The position numbers and the translations under genes were made by a program. Positions 13,670 to 62,633 of a stretch of 64,000 nt of DNA are shown here, in pieces. The notes below the pieces were generated by a model. That model did no database searches and was not told the DNA's origin. It was given only the letters and a program-made list of their open reading frames with translations. Numbering within the stretch: the stretch's first letter is position 1; every line of letters begins with the position of its first letter. Origin of the DNA: Deltaproteobacteria bacterium RIFCSPHIGHO2_01_FULL_43_49 (GTDB lineage Bacteria; UBA10199; SPLOWO2-01-44-7); assembly GCA_001798075.1 (NCBI GenBank), contig MGRG01000012.1, positions 1 through 64,000 of the forward strand, read 5' to 3'.

Positions 13670-14848
13670 CTATTTGATCAATGTCAGAGATGTGGGTAAA
13701 GCCCCAACCCCCAAAGGCCCTGCCATCATAGCTCCCGTGTTTGGGTCCATAATGAATGTCCCCGTGTTGACTGGGTTTCTTTCCGGAACCCAAAGCAGGC
13801 CATTTTGATCAACCAAAAGATCAGACAGAAAACCACCAGGGCTGGTGTATAAGTTTGTGTTTCCTACCCCTGGTGTTGTGGGGTTGAATGAAGCAATTCT
13901 GGATGCATTGACAGTGATAACCCCTAAATTATCAGAGACAAATCTCAATGTGGATACATAACCAGAAAAATTGGCATCATCAATCAAAATTCCCAGAGAC
14001 AATTTCGTCGCGACATCAATGACTTCAATTCCTCCATAGGGTGTTGAAGTATCGTTATTGAAACTGGAATCAAAAACACCTGTGTCGGTTATCAACAAAC
14101 GGTTGGATGTTGTATGATAGGCAATGTCTGTTGGGTTGCGACCGACAAGTGGGATCGATTGAAGAATCGTATCTGTTTTGGTATCGACGACCACAACTTT
14201 TCCGTTGGTCGTTGCTTCAAAATTTTTGGAAAGGTCTTGGCAGAGCACATAGAGCGTATCCCCCGCAAGTGCCATTTTGGCAGCTCTGGCTAAGCGATCT
14301 CCATCATCAGTTGTGTAGGATTTGAGGTCGAGGCTGGCTAATTTTTTGCCGCTTAATGGCTCTACAACCCACAAATCATCTTTGTTATCTGGATCGAGTT
14401 GGGAATCAAGTCTGGTGATGAACGCTTTACCATTGGCTACCACCAAATCTTGTGGGTTTGCAGACTCTCCTGACGAGTAGTTTCCCAAAATTGCAAAAGA
14501 TTGGGGATCAATTACTTGAATGGTACTGACATTACCCCGATTGATGACAAAAAGTTTTCCATCATAACTTTTCACCACAACATCACTCGAATCGGTGATG
14601 GCTAGTGCTTTCTGCACAGGATGAGGATTGTTGAGCCCCACCGTTGCGATACTTCCCACCGGATCGGTAAAAAACGAGGCGGCGACATAAACATTTTCTT
14701 GAGGGTTTAAACTGAGACTTCCTGCAGAGTCATCATCATCGACCGCTTTTTTGATTTGTTCGATGATGTAGCCTGGTCCACATCCAAAAAGAAAAATACT
14801 AAATCCTAAACACGAAATTCTAAACAAATTCAAAATACGAATTTTCAT
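13670..14848 (-). CDS. Beta-propeller (YVTN-like) lipoprotein
   Basis: A 392-residue lipoprotein. A lipobox ending in FLFGCGPG (about 18-25) follows a signal peptide whose core LFRISCLGF is encoded by a dispersed AT-rich repeat (see the repeat at 14797-14848). The mature part is a seven-bladed-type propeller with recurrent strands such as VVVKSYDGKLFVINRG, VVVANGKAFITR and KVVVVDTKTDTILQSIPL. The ATG at 14848 overlaps the receptor stop (ATGA), so it is coupled with the TonB-dependent receptor, as is common for surface substrate-binding lipoproteins. The ligand is unknown. Confidence 0.82.
   Translation of the reverse strand: MKIRILNLFRISCLGFSIFLFGCGPGYIIEQIKKAVDDDDSAGSLSLNPQENVYVAASFFTDPVGSIATVGLNNPHPVQKALAITDSSDVVVKSYDGKLFVINRGNVSTIQVIDPQSFAILGNYSSGESANPQDLVVANGKAFITRLDSQLDPDNKDDLWVVEPLSGKKLASLDLKSYTTDDGDRLARAAKMALAGDTLYVLCQDLSKNFEATTNGKVVVVDTKTDTILQSIPLVGRNPTDIAYHTTSNRLLITDTGVFDSSFNNDTSTPYGGIEVIDVATKLSLGILIDDANFSGYVSTLRFVSDNLGVITVNASRIASFNPTTPGVGNTNLYTSPGGFLSDLLVDQNGLLWVPERNPVNTGTFIMDPNTGAMMAGPLGVGALPTSLTLIK
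14797..14848 (-). repeat. Microrepeat family G, copy 1: encodes the lipoprotein signal peptide core
   Basis: AT-rich repeat built from the units CTAAATCCTAAAC-CACGAAATTCTAAAC-AAATTC. Read on the minus strand it encodes MKIRILNLFRISCLGFSI, i.e. the positive and hydrophobic parts of the signal peptide. A second copy gives NLFRISCLGF in the adjacent receptor. Similar repeats lie outside genes at 21504-21568 and 35146-35279. Confidence 0.75.
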
Positions 14849-16848
14849 AGCTTTAGTTCCAACTCTCCCCAATAAGATCTCCCGGGAAGCGGGAAGCCTG
14901 CAATATCGGCAATTCGGTCATTGAGCAAGTTTTTTGTGGTGAAAGAAATTCGCATCCATTTTAGCGGTTCCAGATGTGTACCAGCAGACAAAAGAGTGCG
15001 CTGAGTTACTTTGAGGAGATTTTGAGAATCCAAAAAATTGTGGCTCAAGATCTGCAATTGGAAGAAAGGCCTCAAAAACCGATATTGATATTCACCCTCT
15101 ACAGTCCATTGGTGTTTAGGCCTTCCAGGCAAGAAGTTTCCTTTGGTTGGTGACGTGTCCGACGCATCTTTGGCGGTCTGATAAACATAGTGACTACTCA
15201 TTTTAAGGTTTTTAAATATCCTGATGGATAATCCAAATTCTCCACCTAAAATCAAAGCACTGTTCAAATTTTGCGCCTTGGCGGTAAATTGAGACGTTTG
15301 CAAAAATTGAATGAGGTTATCTATTTCATGTCGGAAATAAATCATTTCTAAATTTAAATCATCGATAACCCAAAAGTTTTGCCAACGCCCATGAATCCCT
15401 AGGTCAAAGTTGATCGCCTCTTCCGGTTTTAAGTTGGGATTTCCCACCAATGTGCCACGGTCGCCAAAAAGCTCACCAAAAGTTGGTTGACGAAAACCAC
15501 GGTAGACATTGGTTTTGAGACTTAAGAATCGCCACGGTGAAATTTTAATTCCCAATTTTGCGGAAATTTGTCTGTCGGTCACGTCATTGAAACTCTGCCC
15601 GCTCAAATGATTGAGAAAAATTTGAAATCGCAACGAGGGATCCAAAATCACTTTGTCATCTAAAAAGCTGATTTCATCTTCCAGTCCGACACTAACCATA
15701 TGCCTTTGGCTCAGGGGCCCTTGTTGCGGAGTTACCAGTCTGTCAAAGGGCCAGAAAAATTCGCCTCGGTGAGCAAGAAAGCCGCTAAAAATATGGTTTT
15801 GCAAAGGATGGCTCAAATGAAACTCGGGGCCGAGCCGGAAGGTTTCATCTTTATTATCCTGGGTACCGACGCCGATTTCTCCCAGGGGGTCTTCAAATTC
15901 GCTTTTAAGATAATCGAAAAAAAGGTGGGCTTGCCAATTTTTTCTGTTTAGCTTGGCGTGAATAAAATTTCTTAGAGTACCCAATCTTGCTCGGTTGGAA
16001 GTAGAACTCCCCAAACCAGGAATTCCCTCTTCTTTGATAAAGAAGTTTTCATATACTTTCCAATTAAGGGCCTCTTTTTTTTCTTCCCCGAAAGTGGCCG
16101 TGACATCATAAGATCCAAAATCGTTGTTGCCTCTATTAATGATGCGATCGTCAGAACGATTAGCACGTGTTCCCCTGTCATCTAGAAAAGGAAAATCGCC
16201 ACGGCTTCTGAAATGATGAAACGAGGCATTGTAATAAAAATCGCCAAACGCCTGGGCGCGTTGGATGTGACCCTGATAGGTATAAAAAGAGCCAAGAGAA
16301 TTTCGAATGGTATTTTTTGTTTCTGCAGGTTTTCCCTTGGTATGAATAGTGATGACCCCGCCAGGCGTTGAGTCAACAATTTTTCCAGGCGAACCCCCAC
16401 GGTAAATTTCAATCCGCTCAATATGATCCAACGGTAAAAAGGAAAGGTCGGTTAGTCCTCCTTGTGCCGTATTGAGTAAAACGCCATCAAGATAAATCAA
16501 AACTTGATCTGTTGTGGAGCCGCGAATCGAAATGGCCGCAAAATCATCCAGACCTCCATAGCGCTTGATCTGAACTCCCGCAGCTCTTTCCAAAAGTTGC
16601 GGTAGTGTTTGTGCCAGGCCAGGGACTTTTTTGGGGACAATCACTTGAGCCTGAGCTGCTGTATCCAGCTGGACTTCCTCTTGGTCTTGAACGGTAATGT
16701 CGATCTGCGCCTTCTCGTTCGCCCAAACATTACAGGAAATTATAAATCCTAAGCACGAAATTCTAAACAAATTCGAAATTCCAAACACCAAATTCCAAAC
16801 TGTTTTTATTTTTTTTCGGATTTCGGATTTCGGATTTCGGATTTTCAT
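14845..16848 (-). CDS. TonB-dependent outer membrane receptor, BtuB-like
   Basis: A 667-residue receptor. After a signal peptide ending near VWANEKAQ there is a TonB box-like segment, then the plug domain (TLPQLLERAAGVQIKRYGGL, IRGSTTDQVLIYLDGVLLN, IERIEIYRGGSPG, about 78-175) and a 22-strand barrel ending in aromatic SYWGELELKL. The plug wording is close to BtuB-type vitamin B12 receptors, but the family is broad. The first 35 residues are encoded by AT-rich microrepeats (see 16740-16848), so the signal peptide was apparently assembled from repeats. It is coupled to the lipoprotein gene by ATGA overlap. Confidence 0.88.
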   Translation of the reverse strand: MKIRNPKSEIRKKIKTVWNLVFGISNLFRISCLGFIISCNVWANEKAQIDITVQDQEEVQLDTAAQAQVIVPKKVPGLAQTLPQLLERAAGVQIKRYGGLDDFAAISIRGSTTDQVLIYLDGVLLNTAQGGLTDLSFLPLDHIERIEIYRGGSPGKIVDSTPGGVITIHTKGKPAETKNTIRNSLGSFYTYQGHIQRAQAFGDFYYNASFHHFRSRGDFPFLDDRGTRANRSDDRIINRGNNDFGSYDVTATFGEEKKEALNWKVYENFFIKEEGIPGLGSSTSNRARLGTLRNFIHAKLNRKNWQAHLFFDYLKSEFEDPLGEIGVGTQDNKDETFRLGPEFHLSHPLQNHIFSGFLAHRGEFFWPFDRLVTPQQGPLSQRHMVSVGLEDEISFLDDKVILDPSLRFQIFLNHLSGQSFNDVTDRQISAKLGIKISPWRFLSLKTNVYRGFRQPTFGELFGDRGTLVGNPNLKPEEAINFDLGIHGRWQNFWVIDDLNLEMIYFRHEIDNLIQFLQTSQFTAKAQNLNSALILGGEFGLSIRIFKNLKMSSHYVYQTAKDASDTSPTKGNFLPGRPKHQWTVEGEYQYRFLRPFFQLQILSHNFLDSQNLLKVTQRTLLSAGTHLEPLKWMRISFTTKNLLNDRIADIAGFPLPGRSYWGELELKL
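16740..16848 (-). repeat. Microrepeat family G, copy 2: encodes the receptor N-terminus
   Basis: The first part (16740-16800) carries CTAAGCACGAAATTCTAAAC and AAATTC units like copy 1. The second part (about 16816-16844) is four tandem copies of the heptamer TTTCGGA. On the minus strand the heptamers read MKIRNPKSEIRKK and the rest reads NLVFGISNLFRISCLGF. The heptamer is stop-free on both strands, and the whole stretch forms the signal region. Confidence 0.75.
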
Positions 16849-19795: not shown

Positions 19796-20509
19796 CTAAG
19801 CGAGGCGATTGTGATGAGTAACGGCCCATTCTTCTTGGGCCAGTTGGTAGCTCTCTTTGGAGCCGATGTCGCGCCAGTAACCTTCATGAACAAAGGCCGA
19901 AATGGCTTTTACTTTTTGCATGAGGGGAGCAATGCCATCGAGAATCAGGTTAGACGGTTTTTCTGATAGAGTTGAAAAAATAGGAGGGCTTAAGACAGTA
20001 AGCCCCGTAAACAGATGATCTCCCACGTCGATATTAAGCAGTCTTTTGTTTCCCACTTGAAGTCTTGTATAGCCTTCTTGCCACGGGGCTACGACTAGTG
20101 TTGCTGGTGATTTTTGTTCCGCATGAAATTGAGAGAGTTCATTTAAATCACAGTTGATCAACGTATCGCTATTCAAAGTAAAAAATGCCTCTTCATTTTT
20201 GAAATGACTTTCTACTTTTTTTAATCCACCGGCTGTGCCTAAAAGTTTTTCTTCGTGTGAATAACGAATTTTAAGCCCATATTTTTTCCCATCGCCGACA
20301 TGTTGCTCAATTTTTTCACCCAAATAATGCAAATTAATTACCACCTCTTCCACACCAAATTTTTTCAAATAAGAAAGTGAATAGTCGATGATGGGGCGAT
20401 TGCCCAAAGGCAAGAGGGGTTTCGGATTTTTCTCAGTCAAGGGTTTTAAACGTTCCCCCAACCCCGCTGCAAAAAGAAAGGCCTTTTTAATATTTTTTGA
20501 TGAGGTCAT
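19796..20509 (-). CDS. Sugar-1-phosphate nucleotidyltransferase, MurU-like
   Basis: A 237-residue nucleotidyltransferase. The signature FLFAAGLGERLKPLTEKNPK with PKPLLPLGNRP (about 10-39) is clear, followed by the Mg-binding TLNSDTLIN (about 105-113) and a C-terminal HEGYWRDIGSKESY (about 215-228). The closest family is the MurNAc-1-phosphate uridylyltransferase MurU group. Overlap by 23 bp with an AmgK-like kinase strongly supports the peptidoglycan recycling route MurNAc to MurNAc-1-P to UDP-MurNAc. This route normally bypasses de novo UDP-MurNAc synthesis. Confidence 0.85.
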   Translation of the reverse strand: MTSSKNIKKAFLFAAGLGERLKPLTEKNPKPLLPLGNRPIIDYSLSYLKKFGVEEVVINLHYLGEKIEQHVGDGKKYGLKIRYSHEEKLLGTAGGLKKVESHFKNEEAFFTLNSDTLINCDLNELSQFHAEQKSPATLVVAPWQEGYTRLQVGNKRLLNIDVGDHLFTGLTVLSPPIFSTLSEKPSNLILDGIAPLMQKVKAISAFVHEGYWRDIGSKESYQLAQEEWAVTHHNRLA

Positions 20510-21503
20510 AGAGTCCGTTGTATTCTGGAAGCCTTGCCAATGCCTGTTTTACATAACCCATGGATGTTGGGATGAATTTCAGAAAATCAGGATTCTTTTT
20601 TACATGATCGATAAAAACAAACCGCCCGGAGTCTTTGAGTTTGCGCTGCACCGTTTGCAGATCAAAAGCCCTCCGTAATTTTTTGATATGCCAACCCTGC
20701 TGCCCGCCATAATATTCGAGCAGCTCTTCCAAATAATCGGTCACATCAAAATAGGAATCCCTCAGCAAACTGACCAGATCATAAACATCGGGCCCCAAAA
20801 GGGCATCCTGAAAATCGGTCATGGTGAGTTGGTTGTTGTGGACCATCAGATTACTTCCTTGAAAGTCACGGTGTGTAAATACTTGCGGCATCGCACAGAG
20901 TTCTTGCGTAATTTTCCTCGTCTCCTTTATGAAAATATCTTTGTCCTCAGCTGATGGCTGACAGCTGACAGCTGACAGCTGAAAGTAGTATTCAAGGAAA
21001 TGATCAAACTCCCAGTTAAAAAGGGTGGCGTCAAAAGAGCGTTGATAGGCGATACAACTTGTGCTGATGTGCTGATGTGCTGATGTGCTGATGTCTTTTG
21101 AAGTTTTGTTTTGTAAAATCACTAGGAGATCGAGGGCTTTTTTGTACCATTTTTTAATATCATTGGGCTGAGCCGTTTTAACAGTGTCCCAAAGTTTTGT
21201 GTCGCCTAAATCATTCAGGATAATCCAGCGATCCTCTTCGCTAAACAGTTTGATTTCGGGGACAGGAAGCCCTAATGATTTGAGATAGCGCTGGACATTA
21301 ATATAAGAAAGCTCCTTCGGTTTTTCTTTTAAATTTGTGATTTCCTCCGAGACACTCATTTTACCTTCTGGCATCGCCATCAAAATAAAAGTCTCATCGC
21401 CTTGTGAAAAAACCCGATAAAAAGTTCGGTAAGAAGCCCCTCCATAGAGTTTCGTTACCTTGATAACAGGCTTACCTAGAAGTTGAGTTAATCTTGCTTC
21501 CAT
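20487..21503 (-). CDS. Anomeric MurNAc/GlcNAc kinase-like phosphotransferase (AmgK-like)
   Basis: A 338-residue member of the aminoglycoside phosphotransferase fold. The catalytic loop THRDFQGSNLMV (about 211-222) and DFQDALLGPDVYDLVSLL (about 231-248) match AmgK, which phosphorylates the anomeric position of MurNAc. It feeds the overlapping MurU-like gene. Two in-frame low-complexity inserts, STSAHQHISTS (about 137-147) and QLSAVSCQPSA (about 175-185), are encoded by octamer and heptamer repeats and appear to be insertions between structural elements. The gene is preceded by an AT-rich repeat with no Shine-Dalgarno. Confidence 0.82.
   Translation of the reverse strand: MEARLTQLLGKPVIKVTKLYGGASYRTFYRVFSQGDETFILMAMPEGKMSVSEEITNLKEKPKELSYINVQRYLKSLGLPVPEIKLFSEEDRWIILNDLGDTKLWDTVKTAQPNDIKKWYKKALDLLVILQNKTSKDISTSAHQHISTSCIAYQRSFDATLFNWEFDHFLEYYFQLSAVSCQPSAEDKDIFIKETRKITQELCAMPQVFTHRDFQGSNLMVHNNQLTMTDFQDALLGPDVYDLVSLLRDSYFDVTDYLEELLEYYGGQQGWHIKKLRRAFDLQTVQRKLKDSGRFVFIDHVKKNPDFLKFIPTSMGYVKQALARLPEYNGLYDLIKKY
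20947..20985 (-). repeat. Heptamer microrepeat inside the AmgK-like gene (QLSAVSC type)
   Basis: Tandem GCTGACA heptamers (plus-strand), at least three units with a diverged fourth. On the coding strand they read QLSAVSCQPSA. The coding orientation is the stop-free one; the opposite strand would give TGA. The insertion sits between two helical segments of the kinase. Confidence 0.8.
21058..21096 (-). repeat. Octamer microrepeat inside the AmgK-like gene (HQHIST type)
   Basis: Four tandem GTGCTGAT octamers (plus-strand), read on the minus strand as DISTSAHQHISTS. The coding orientation is stop-free, whereas the other strand contains TGA. It is the second in-frame microrepeat in the same gene. 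Confidence 0.8.
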
Positions 21504-28883: not shown

Positions 28884-28920
<37 letters not shown>

Positions 28921-58861: not shown

Positions 58862-60136
58862 TTATTTTAGACTCGGGCCCCACCAGGGAAGTTGTCCTGT
58901 TCCCTTAGAAACGCGGACGGGATTTGCACCATCGAAACGCATGACATAAATCGCTTCGCCACCGCGTGTAGAGCTAAAGGTAATATAACGGCTATCTGGG
59001 GACCAACTGGGGTGCTCGTTATTTCCTTCACCGGCGGTTAATCTTTGAATCAAACTTCCATCCGAGTTCATAGTGAAGACGTCAAAGGCTCCGGAATCCC
59101 TAGCGCAAAAAGTAATTTTCTGTCCGTCAGGGGACCAAGCGGGCGTGTCATTGAATTGCCCCACATAAGTTAAGCGGCCGGCACCGCCACCACCAGCCCC
59201 CATGGTGTAAACATGAAGATTGCCTGCCATTTCGGATGAAAACAAAATCATTCCCCCATCGGGAGAATAAACAGGAGAAATGTCAACGCCAGGCGCGTTT
59301 GTTAGTTTTGAAATCATTTTTCCAGAGGTGGTCATGGTCCAAATGTCGGGATCGCCATCAATCGAACTTGAAAAAACAATCGTTCCACCGTCTGGACTGA
59401 AAGAGGGTGTCAGATTGGTTGCCTTGTTGCGGGTTAGTTGTTTTCCCGACATGTAAATCTCCGGTGTTCCAGAGGCATAGGAGGTATAGACAACTCTTGA
59501 GCCATCGGGAGAAAACTTGGAACCAAGACTCAATGTTTTTCCATCAGAAATACCGCCATCATTGGCACCATCATAATCCATAATGCGAATGACTTTTCGT
59601 GCCTTGCCCGCAGGGGATGTGTAGGTGATTTTGCTGTTGAAAGGCCCTTTGATTCCGGTCAAGGCCAACATCACCTCGTCAGAAAAGCGATGCGCAATCG
59701 AGCGGACATCTTTTGAAGAACCACTATATTGTTTTCCCACCAGCATTTGTTTTAAGAAGGGGTCGAAGAGTTTGAGCTGAACCGTGATTTGATCGCCCTT
59801 TTTGGTAATGCCACCTTTAATGACCGCTTGGGCCTCGATGGCTGTCCATTGGTCAAAGTTAATCGTCTCAGCCGTTAGGGCAGTACTGCTGGAGGGTTCC
59901 AAAAAAGCAGCGGGGGGAATAAATTGAAAATAGGCCGAGATTTCGAGATCATTTTGGATAACATCTGGAATTTCTTTTTCAAGCTTTCCCGCTCCCCCAT
60001 CCAACCCAACTAGTTCTGTGATCGCTATCGGCAGTTTTTTATCCGAAGGCTGGTCGATAGGGATGTAAATGCGCGCCTCTACGTTTTTTGTACAGAAGGT
60101 GAACACCAAAAAAAACCAAAATAATTTATTTTTCAT
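58862..60136 (-). CDS. tolB: TolB periplasmic beta-propeller protein
   Basis: A 424-residue periplasmic protein of the Tol system. A signal peptide (LFWFFLVFTFCTKNVEA), an N-terminal alpha/beta domain (IAITELVG ... AYFQFIPPAAF), and six-bladed propeller with repeated F/Y/W-SPDG (FSPDGSRVVYTS, FSPDGGTIVFSS, YSPDGGMILFSS, WSPDGQKITFC, WSPDSRYITFSS) are clear. The ATG at 60136 is preferred over the reading to 60211, which would enter the D element. pal does not follow; ppx/gppA does. A 550-bp repeat-filled spacer separates it from tolA. Confidence 0.93.
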   Translation of the reverse strand: MKNKLFWFFLVFTFCTKNVEARIYIPIDQPSDKKLPIAITELVGLDGGAGKLEKEIPDVIQNDLEISAYFQFIPPAAFLEPSSSTALTAETINFDQWTAIEAQAVIKGGITKKGDQITVQLKLFDPFLKQMLVGKQYSGSSKDVRSIAHRFSDEVMLALTGIKGPFNSKITYTSPAGKARKVIRIMDYDGANDGGISDGKTLSLGSKFSPDGSRVVYTSYASGTPEIYMSGKQLTRNKATNLTPSFSPDGGTIVFSSSIDGDPDIWTMTTSGKMISKLTNAPGVDISPVYSPDGGMILFSSEMAGNLHVYTMGAGGGGAGRLTYVGQFNDTPAWSPDGQKITFCARDSGAFDVFTMNSDGSLIQRLTAGEGNNEHPSWSPDSRYITFSSTRGGEAIYVMRFDGANPVRVSKGTGQLPWWGPSLK

Positions 60137-60187
60137 AGAGCACTTTATTAATGTGTCAGACAAAAAGATGCAAGCGCTAAAGGAGTA

Positions 60188-60378
60188 GGGGAGGAGTGGG
60201 GGGGTGTTCAAAACCGTGCTCCACTTCGGGCTATCTCGTCAAAAAAATAATTTCGTTTTGATGCAGATAGTATCTTACCTGCCGTCAGCTCTATCTGCAG
60301 AAACGAATATTATTTTTATTGACTCAATACGCCCTCGTTCCCGCACAAATGTTTTTCACACCCCTCCCACTCCTCCCC
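60188..60378. repeat. Inverted-repeat element family D, copy 2
   Basis: Arms GGGGAGGAGTGGGGGGGTGT and ACACCCCTCCCACTCCTCCCC (near-complementary). Its interior is the inverse of the copy at 19561-19748 and differs at a handful of sites by eye. No ORF of significance. Confidence 0.82.
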
Positions 60379-60682: not shown

Positions 60683-61495
60683 TTATTGGGCTAATTGCAT
60701 TTTGAGTGAGGGGTCAAATTGGACTAGAAACCCCTCATTGTAGGCTTCCCATTCGAGGCGTTGGGGAGGGACGGGTAAGGGGGAGGCCCGTTGTACCGCG
60801 CGCATGCAAGAAGAATCAAAAGCAAGATTACTCGAACGTTCTTCCCAATCGGTTGTAACAATTTCACCTTGTTGATTGATCATCACAACAATACTGGTTT
60901 TGGGTTTAGTGGGAAGTTCCAAATAAGCGCCTGGGATAATCCATTCTTGCATAATTTTGAATCGAATTTTTGCTTGATAAGCAACATATTCTGGATCGGT
61001 TGGGGGAACTCTTAGGGGTTCCGTGCCGGTTCCGTATTTAAACCCTTCCCCTTTGTCTTTGACTTGTGCCGCCTCGGGTGGGGCAGGAGGTTTTTTCTTA
61101 TTGAGAGCTGCAAGAGCCTTTTGCACATCGCTTATTTTTTTCGGCTTAGGCTTCGGTTCGGCTTGAATAGGACGCAAAGTTGGTTTGGGCTGAGGTTTTG
61201 GTTCTTCTTTGGGGGCCACCATCGGTTTTTCTTTGGAAGGTTCGCTTTGTTGCTCTGCCTGTTCTTTTTGCTGTTGGATGGTTGTTTTAGGAAGATTTTC
61301 CGCTTCTTTGATTTTGATTTCAATATTTTCAGAAGCCCCTTTGGGGAGTTCGACCCAGACCACCTTGACTTTGGGTTTTAATAAAGGAAGTTTCGGAACA
61401 TAGAGAATGAGACCCAAACAGATCAGATGGGCCAGGATAGAATAAAAGATTGGTCTTTTTAAAGATAAACTCCACGTCCGTGGTCCATAGTCCAT
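60683..61495 (-). CDS. tolA: TolA/TonB-like cell envelope protein
   Basis: A 270-residue protein with one N-terminal membrane helix (PIFYSILAHLICLGLILYV), a long charged Gln/Glu/Lys/Pro linker (about 60-150), and a C-terminal domain IRFKIMQEWIIPGAYLEL ... IVVMINQQGEIVTTDWEERSSN similar to TonB/TolA. It follows tolR by 15 bp, so it is the TolA of the cluster. Its start codon lies in a tandem TCCATAG heptamer repeat (MDYGPRTW), so the N-terminal residues derive from the repeat. Confidence 0.85.
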   Translation of the reverse strand: MDYGPRTWSLSLKRPIFYSILAHLICLGLILYVPKLPLLKPKVKVVWVELPKGASENIEIKIKEAENLPKTTIQQQKEQAEQQSEPSKEKPMVAPKEEPKPQPKPTLRPIQAEPKPKPKKISDVQKALAALNKKKPPAPPEAAQVKDKGEGFKYGTGTEPLRVPPTDPEYVAYQAKIRFKIMQEWIIPGAYLELPTKPKTSIVVMINQQGEIVTTDWEERSSNLAFDSSCMRAVQRASPLPVPPQRLEWEAYNEGFLVQFDPSLKMQLAQ

Positions 61496-61509
61496 AGTCC
61501 ATAGTCCAT
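61484..61509 (-). repeat. Heptamer repeat supplying the tolA start codon
   Basis: Three full TCCATAG units and one partial unit. On the minus strand each unit carries ATG (61509, 61502, 61495). Since the unit is 7 bp, these three ATGs fall in three different frames; only the one at 61495 is in the tolA frame. Confidence 0.85.
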
Positions 61510-61510
61510 T

Positions 61511-61933
61511 TTATTTTTTGTCCTCGGGTTGTGTCACCATGCCGATTCTTTCCACCCCTGCATTGTGGGCAATCGACATCACCTCCACCACTTTTCCATA
61601 AAGCAGTTGCTGGTCTGCTTTGATAAGCAGATCTTTTTTCTCTTTGTTTTGATAAACGGCGGCCAGTTTGCCGCTCAGCTCTTCCATGGGAATAGGCGCC
61701 CTGGAGTCACCGACAAAAATATGTCCGGTGTTATCAATAGTAAGCAAAATATCTTGAGGAGTTCTCTCTAGTTCCGGAGCTTGCGCTTTGGGAAGCTGCA
61801 CTGCCATGCCTTGTTGCAAAAGGGGAGCTGTGATCATGAAGATAATGAGAAGCACCAACACCACATCGACAAAAGGTGTGATATTAATTTCAGCTAAAGC
61901 GCGGTGATGACTGCCACCATGTTGCAATTTCAT
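61511..61933 (-). CDS. tolR: TolR/ExbD-type energy transducer
   Basis: A 140-residue protein with one N-terminal membrane helix containing the proton-path Asp (INITPFVDVVLVLLIIFMIT, about 18-37) and a periplasmic domain (DILLTIDNTGHIFVGDSRAP). It starts 1 bp after tolQ's stop and precedes tolA, the standard order. With TolQ it forms a proton-driven motor for TolA and outer membrane constriction. Confidence 0.93.
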   Translation of the reverse strand: MKLQHGGSHHRALAEINITPFVDVVLVLLIIFMITAPLLQQGMAVQLPKAQAPELERTPQDILLTIDNTGHIFVGDSRAPIPMEELSGKLAAVYQNKEKKDLLIKADQQLLYGKVVEVMSIAHNAGVERIGMVTQPEDKK

Positions 61934-61934
61934 T

Positions 61935-62633
61935 TTATTTTCCTAATTGATATTCGTGTGAAAGGCGATCAATCAAATCATCCGTAAAATCTTCCAAATC
62001 TTTGCTGAATCGACGGATTCTGTTGATGAAAACATTGTAGAAAATAACAGCAGGAATGGCTGCGGCCAAGCCGATGGCGGTAGCAATCAACGCTTCGGCG
62101 ATATGGGGCCCCACAACGGCAAGACTAGAAGCGCCCGATTGACCGATTTTCCAAAAGGCATTTAAAATCCCCCAAACCGTTCCAAAGAGTCCAATAAACG
62201 GAGCTGCTGAGGCAGTGGTTGCCAAAAAGGGGACGCCATATTCAATCTGTTCTAATTCTTCTTCGTAAGCCCTGCGGACATCTCTTGCGACCGGCTCTTT
62301 ACGCCCCGGGTTTTTATGTGTTTCTAAAGATTGTTGTGCGGTTTGAAAAATATGAGAGGCTGGACCTTTGCGCAAACCTTTTTTCGTCATCATCTCTTCT
62401 AATTTTTTCGTTTCCCAAAAAACTTCGTAAAATTGATTGGAGTGCTGTTCCGACCGCTTGAGTTGTCTATGTTTGGCAACGATGATCGCCCAACTAACCA
62501 CGGAAAAAACCAGCAAAATAAAAAGGGTCAGTTGCACCATCGGATCGGCGTGAAAGACCAGATAGATCAAATGCTGATTCCCTGTTGTGGTGGTTTCTGT
62601 CACCGGTGCTGCTTGCAATAAAAGTGATAACAT
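61935..62633 (-). CDS. tolQ: TolQ/ExbB-type motor subunit
   Basis: A 232-residue inner membrane protein with three helices: DPMVQLTLFILLVFSVVSWAII (about 30-51), PFIGLFGTVWGILNAFWKI (about 147-165) and EALIATAIGLAAAIPAVIFYN (about 180-200). The GLFGTVWGI and TAIGLAAAIPA segments are the ion path. It heads the tolQ-tolR-tolA series; murI is divergent from it. No ybgC is next to it. Confidence 0.93.
   Translation of the reverse strand: MLSLLLQAAPVTETTTTGNQHLIYLVFHADPMVQLTLFILLVFSVVSWAIIVAKHRQLKRSEQHSNQFYEVFWETKKLEEMMTKKGLRKGPASHIFQTAQQSLETHKNPGRKEPVARDVRRAYEEELEQIEYGVPFLATTASAAPFIGLFGTVWGILNAFWKIGQSGASSLAVVGPHIAEALIATAIGLAAAIPAVIFYNVFINRIRRFSKDLEDFTDDLIDRLSHEYQLGK

Follow-up and report, generated by a model that had tools for sequence, protein, structure and literature searches.

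Repeats with a 7-bp unit are recognised as over-represented in bacterial genomes (PMC4692102), and a suggestion cited in that source links heptamers to the polymerase active site. Direct repeats of the heptamer TAACTGA are found in marine Beggiatoaceae, Cyanobacteria and Bacteroidetes (MacGregor 2015, PMC4679880), as a rule in arrays of 2-6 units, and heptanucleotides have been implicated in phase variation in Haemophilus (PMC2651432). Here we describe a heptamer array at the junction of tolR and tolA in a 64,000-nucleotide stretch of DNA, the window, from Deltaproteobacteria bacterium RIFCSPHIGHO2_01_FULL_43_49 (contig MGRG01000012.1). We consider it likely that frame-agnostic heptamer arrays have been gained recurrently at permissive sites and that one of them was captured as the start of tolA. 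Heptamer repeats are known, and it is the use as a start codon that looks new: a literature search for a published name or label for the GGACYAT/ATGGACT heptamer returned nothing relevant, and the open-access literature searched yielded no description of a start codon or signal peptide built from such arrays.

The array and the reading frames that open in it are as follows.

61483 to 61509, minus strand: perfect heptamer array, unit ATGGACT (GTCCATA on the top strand), 3.9 units with four ATGs (Tandem Repeats Finder, TRF; sequence; pattern search).
61475 to 61481, minus strand: ACGGACG, a probable further, decayed unit on the 3' (tolA) side of the array (sequence).
60683 to 61495, minus strand: tolA, with a TonB_2 C-terminal domain (PF13103, E 2.4e-14) and the N-terminus MDYGPRTWSLSLKRP, whose first 7 residues come from the array.
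61493 to 61495, minus strand: ATG in the tolA frame, the sole ATG, GTG or TTG ahead of the LKRP core (open reading frame, ORF, and in-frame start scan).
61459 to 61509, minus strand: 16-codon out-of-frame ORF from the first array ATG, with the best Shine-Dalgarno-like (SD-like) match, GAGG, upstream (ORF scan).
61329 to 61502, minus strand: 57-codon out-of-frame ORF from the second array ATG (ORF scan).

TRF reports the 27 bp at 61483-61509 with period 7, 3.9 copies and a 100% match. On the minus strand, the tolR/exbD stop codon TAA is followed by a single A, three ATGGACT units, ATGGACC, ACGGACG and TGGAG. The tandem heptamer described in the initial annotation is thus real, but it holds four ATGs, not three, spans 61483-61509, and continues as a decayed unit to about 61475. 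With head-to-tail tandem 7-bp units in several copies, it belongs among the heptameric simple sequence repeats (SSR) or short tandemly repeated repetitive sequences (STRR). Allowing up to 2 mismatches, the 14-mer double unit has four overlapping matches in the window against 0.2 expected, all of them at this array, and shuffled sequence contained no period-7 arrays of three or more units, so that an origin by chance is ruled out in practice.

The four ATGs lie at 61509, 61502, 61495 and 61488, the first and last of them in one frame and all three frames covered. The ORFs that they open run for 16, 57, 270 (tolA) and 9 codons, which bears out the earlier statement that only 61495 leads into tolA. 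That three units place an ATG in three frames is also correct, as plain arithmetic that holds for any heptamer containing ATG; the non-trivial point is that tolA has no start available outside the array. Going upstream from 61495, the tolA frame meets the tolR stop codon at a distance of 15 nt; the N-terminus reads MDYGPRTWSLSLKRPIFYS. A conserved start downstream of the repeat was looked for and none was found: the first in-frame ATG, GTG or TTG beyond 61495 is a TTG 78 nt downstream, within the membrane helix, and TolA conservation among relatives begins at LKRP. Because no other in-frame ATG, GTG or TTG precedes the LKRP membrane core, the tolA start must, on sequence grounds and barring a non-canonical start codon, lie inside the array, and translation is predicted to begin at 61495.

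The array is part of a tolQ-tolR-tolA-tolB cluster, whose other members are given below.

61511 to 61933, minus strand: tolR/exbD (PF02472), stop TAA at 61513-61511, one base ahead of the first array ATG.
61935 to 62633, minus strand: tolQ/exbB (PF01618), upstream in the operon.
58862 to 60211, minus strand: tolB ORF (PF04052, PF07676); the start is probably near 60136 (MKNKLFWFF) and not at the TTG of 60211.

No inverted partner of the tolA array was seen at the junction, which carries a plain heptamer array. RNA structure was considered there and set aside, the predicted stability being no greater than that of shuffled sequence (z 0.11).

How the repeat number would affect tolA can be calculated. 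From 2 to 8 ATG units, tolA always retains an in-frame ATG; at 2, 5 and 8 units it is the first ATG that stands in the tolA frame, and the protein gains 7 residues for every three further units. The initial annotation had called the repeat a possible frame-independent start provider, a fair description given this result and the similar tolA start in one relative, and had raised switching of the start by repeat number. On/off switching does not follow from the calculation, since the frame is never lost once two ATG units are present. In a phase-variable repeat, copy number toggles the frame on and off; here the tolA frame stays open at two or more ATG units. The irrelevance of copy number beyond that point argues for buffering and against an on/off switch. 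Repeat number may still have a graded effect, given that the upstream context is better at the first ATG, which is out of frame.

The tolR-tolA junction was compared in five other genomes of the same family (G001-G005; the window genome is G000). G005 and G003 belong to one genus, and G005 shares only the family with G000. Four of the six genomes have no array at the junction, and in the array-free relatives tolA starts at varied sites 1-16 nt past tolR: G002 begins with MIHLKRP, G003 with MELEKKLSLKKP, and G004 with a GTG and the sequence VDKRQ (VDKRQLIIAKQLPLKKP); G001 is likewise array-free. The junction of G005 carries GGACCAT/GGACCAA units (TAATGGACCAAGGACAATGGACCATGGACCAAGGACC), and its tolA starts as MDHGPRTKKLSLKRP at the second-last array ATG, as in the window. 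No heptamer array is present at the junction in any of the further members of the class that were compared, and one of these (L007) has a 16-bp degenerate repeat. The comparison with relatives that had been proposed for the ancestral start yields varied array-free starts in four genomes and an array start in G005. A tree of the six genomes (TolQRA, PdxA, ValS and a SurA-like protein) joins G003 with G005, then G002, then G004 (bootstrap 100, 80 and 90), so that the array requires either two gains or one gain and three losses.

The tolA array is one member of a genome-wide class of period-7 repeats, a membership absent from the initial annotation. Our survey drew on stretches of G000 totalling 464 kb and on selected regions of relatives; the G004 and G005 regions were picked for their arrays, and array rates are drawn from neither. 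In G000 we found 11 exact period-7 arrays of at least three units, built from nine different units and located at gene starts, within genes and between genes. Other periods gave 0-2 arrays each, except period 14 (5). With a looser cut, 13 arrays were found in G000 and 1 in 368 kb of relatives (outside G000 and G004). The GGACYAT unit itself is dispersed, with 3 loci in G000, and is greatly expanded in G004 and G005: matches to its 18-mer number 137 in G004, 60 in G005, 3 each in G000 and G001, 1 in G003 and 0 in G002, and none were found in 40 other genomes of the phylum outside the family. The exact unit occurs elsewhere in Bacteroidota, Cyanobacteria (notably Anabaena azotica), Omnitrophota, Acidobacteria and others, and 60 of the 74 cross-phylum arrays are neither start-like nor within a long ORF. 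At orthologous Pedobacter loci, the same heptamer is present at 5.7, 8.7 and 12.4 units between flanks that are 81-86% identical. Intergenic GGACYAT arrays (G004 L036, L039, L040 and L047-L051; G005 L037) often form inverted pairs that flank an A/T-rich loop and are capable of forming hairpins. Within the window, an APH-family phosphotransferase gene (20487-21503, minus strand) contains two arrays at 20948-21094, one of heptamers and one of 8-bp units (TGTGCTGA, 4.4 copies), and a perfect (TC)16 dinucleotide tract occupies 28887-28918.

Arrays also stand in frame inside conserved genes. In G005, ValS is interrupted at two places, and MurD and RNase R are interrupted as well, with Pfam domains flanking both sides. 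In the ValS loop past LWHIRY, the insert is made of GGACCAT heptamers in G005, of AAAAATC heptamers in G000 and of a repetitive EVRGQxSEVRGQ in G004; G003 has none, and G002 has an unrelated insert. Judged by these sequences, this loop, with heptamer arrays in at least two genomes, is a case of recurrent gain at a permissive site. A further dispersed repeat type, encoding CLPAGR/ACRQAGR-like stretches, is present in ValS of G005 (L256) and in L280.

Gene starts and signal peptides provide further instances. The ctpA signal peptides of the congeners G003 and G005 differ by exactly 21 nt, or three units (MVSPAFA against VLSPWSMVHGPALA), and in G005 and G001 the signal peptide of the SurA-like protein is of the array type. 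In pdxA of G004 the only start lies inside an array; in pdxA of G005 an array follows an older ATGAAA start. The window holds one more such locus.

16768 to 16848, minus strand: inverted heptamer-array pair (AAATCCG arm, then a TTTGGAA-type arm) at the N-terminus, MKIRNPKSEIRKKIKTVWNLVFGISNLF..., of a TonB-dependent receptor (TRF, Pfam, sequence).

The receptor gene (14845-16848, minus strand) begins within this inverted pair, which likely encodes its signal peptide. Signal-peptide segments of the type VLxPWSMVHGPAxA, read from antisense GGACYAT arrays, occur in several exported proteins (G005 L245/L242/L241/L239/L237/L235, G004 L191/L206/L209 and G000 L179), and the leader peptides of type IV pilin-like genes also contain heptamer arrays (L184:3200-3230 in G000, L192:14433-15767 in G004).

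We propose the following course of events. In a lineage with a genome-wide class of period-7 arrays, of which GGACYAT is one unit, arrays would have been gained repeatedly where extra sequence is tolerated, namely at operon junctions, N-termini, signal peptides and surface loops, with slippage, the usual proposal, as their presumed source. One array would have been gained at the short tolR-tolA junction. Since 7 and 3 share no factor, an ATGGACT array is predicted to encode the same heptapeptide, M-D-Y-G-L-W-T, in all frames; with an ATG in each frame and no stop on the coding strand, one ATG would therefore stand in the tolA frame wherever the array landed. The ancestral tolA start would then have been lost and the array ATG at 61495 would have taken over, so that TolA would have acquired a short cytoplasmic extension at its N-terminus, ahead of the membrane helix. 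The capture was probably near-neutral, and the tolA array is most likely not a regulated switch.

Two sets of observations weigh against this proposal. No SD-like match precedes 61495, whereas the out-of-frame 61509 has one, and translation from 61495 may for that reason be poor; SD use is weak across the genome, however (80 of 279 ATG starts against a background of 15%), so that the missing match is not telling. In addition, the tolA arrays of G000 and G005 share their frame and their distance from start ATG to LKRP, which makes an ancestral array with three losses possible. On that account the ancestor shared by G000 and G005 would already have had the array, G004, G002 and G003 would have lost it, and the start would be old and perhaps under selection. 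The equal spacing of 33 nt between start ATG and LKRP in the two genomes, and a match at 18 of 21 nt across the three units that follow the start, speak in its favor. Two independent gains would nonetheless be the simpler history on the six-genome tree (bootstrap 80-100); independent inserts recur at one site in the ValS loop, and the surA-pdxA junction carries arrays in G001, G004 and G005. We regard an ancestral array as a tentative alternative, one that differs in the history alone and would fit the same mode of operation.

A role in translational tuning appears improbable. Slippage would here shift the number of out-of-frame ATGs, with TolA higher at 2, 5 and 8 units and lower at 3, 4, 6 and 7, in keeping with the calculated frame pattern and with the sole SD-like match belonging to the first array ATG. 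The copy-number variation at the Pedobacter loci and the heptanucleotides among the phase-variable repeats of Haemophilus influenzae (PMC2651432) lend it some plausibility. Yet a tract of four units is short to be hypermutable, tolA serves envelope maintenance and is not a variable surface structure, an on/off response is impossible above one unit, and four of the six family genomes lack the array. It is very improbable that the array is a chance microsatellite in the spacer, irrelevant to a tolA that starts at a downstream non-canonical codon. The preponderance of cross-phylum arrays outside starts and long ORFs fits such an origin, but the absence of an in-frame ATG, GTG or TTG before the membrane helix, the shared arrangement in G005 and the array-free shuffled sequence all oppose it. 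More speculatively, and with some doubt on our part, the arrays could be frame-agnostic coding modules used lineage-wide across the proteome. Each strand of an array reads as one heptapeptide in every frame; the sense arm would supply a start and a polar n-region (MDxGPxT), and a hydrophobic c-region of signal-peptidase-like type (VLxPWSMVHGPAxA) would come from the inverted arm, so that a spreading heptamer hairpin would create a new gene start and signal peptide at once.

Under the favored explanation, recurrent gain with capture of one array by tolA, a unit length coprime to 3 and an open strand offer repeats a simple route into coding space without damage to the frame. An array that reads alike in every frame can land harmlessly in gene starts, signal peptides and protein loops, which bears on why heptamers are over-represented in bacterial genomes and on the origin of new start codons and signal peptides. 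It also calls for caution in annotation, as N-termini resembling MDYGLWT or MDHGPWT in such genomes may be real protein parts or misplaced starts.

Compared with known systems, the arrays resemble the TAACTGA repeats in being short, dispersed tandem heptamers, patchy across phyla, often next to start codons and sometimes within ORFs. The unit here is ATGGACT, however. TAACTGA places forward stops in all three frames just before starts, whereas the present unit provides ATG in all frames, no stop, and a start inside the array; the present arrays also occur in frame in essential genes and in signal peptides. With the cyanobacterial STRR and the G-rich heptamers of Xanthomonas and Nostoc (PMC4692102), they share an excess of period 7 (11 arrays in 464 kb against 0-2 for other periods that are not multiples of it), dispersal, variation in sequence and, for this heptamer at the Pedobacter loci, in copy number, and some inverted repeats; unlike those G-rich heptamers, the unit is not based on a G-tract and occurs within genes. 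The phase-variable 5' repeats of H. influenzae are alike in placing a repeat at the 5' end of a gene, with several possible ATGs in different frames. Their starts lie outside the repeat and copy number acts as an on/off control, whereas here the ATGs lie in the units and an in-frame ATG is always kept. The lic-type repeats of H. influenzae are tetranucleotides. Rickettsia palindromic elements, palindromes of about 100-150 bp, are short repeats that stand in frame within protein genes and are tolerated at surface sites. Each is a long palindrome of one sequence family, which the tolA heptamer array is not, and no relation in sequence came to light, no search having been aimed at one; the likeness is one of effect only, namely in-frame insertion in conserved genes, as seen here in the ValS loop and in ctpA of G005 against G003.
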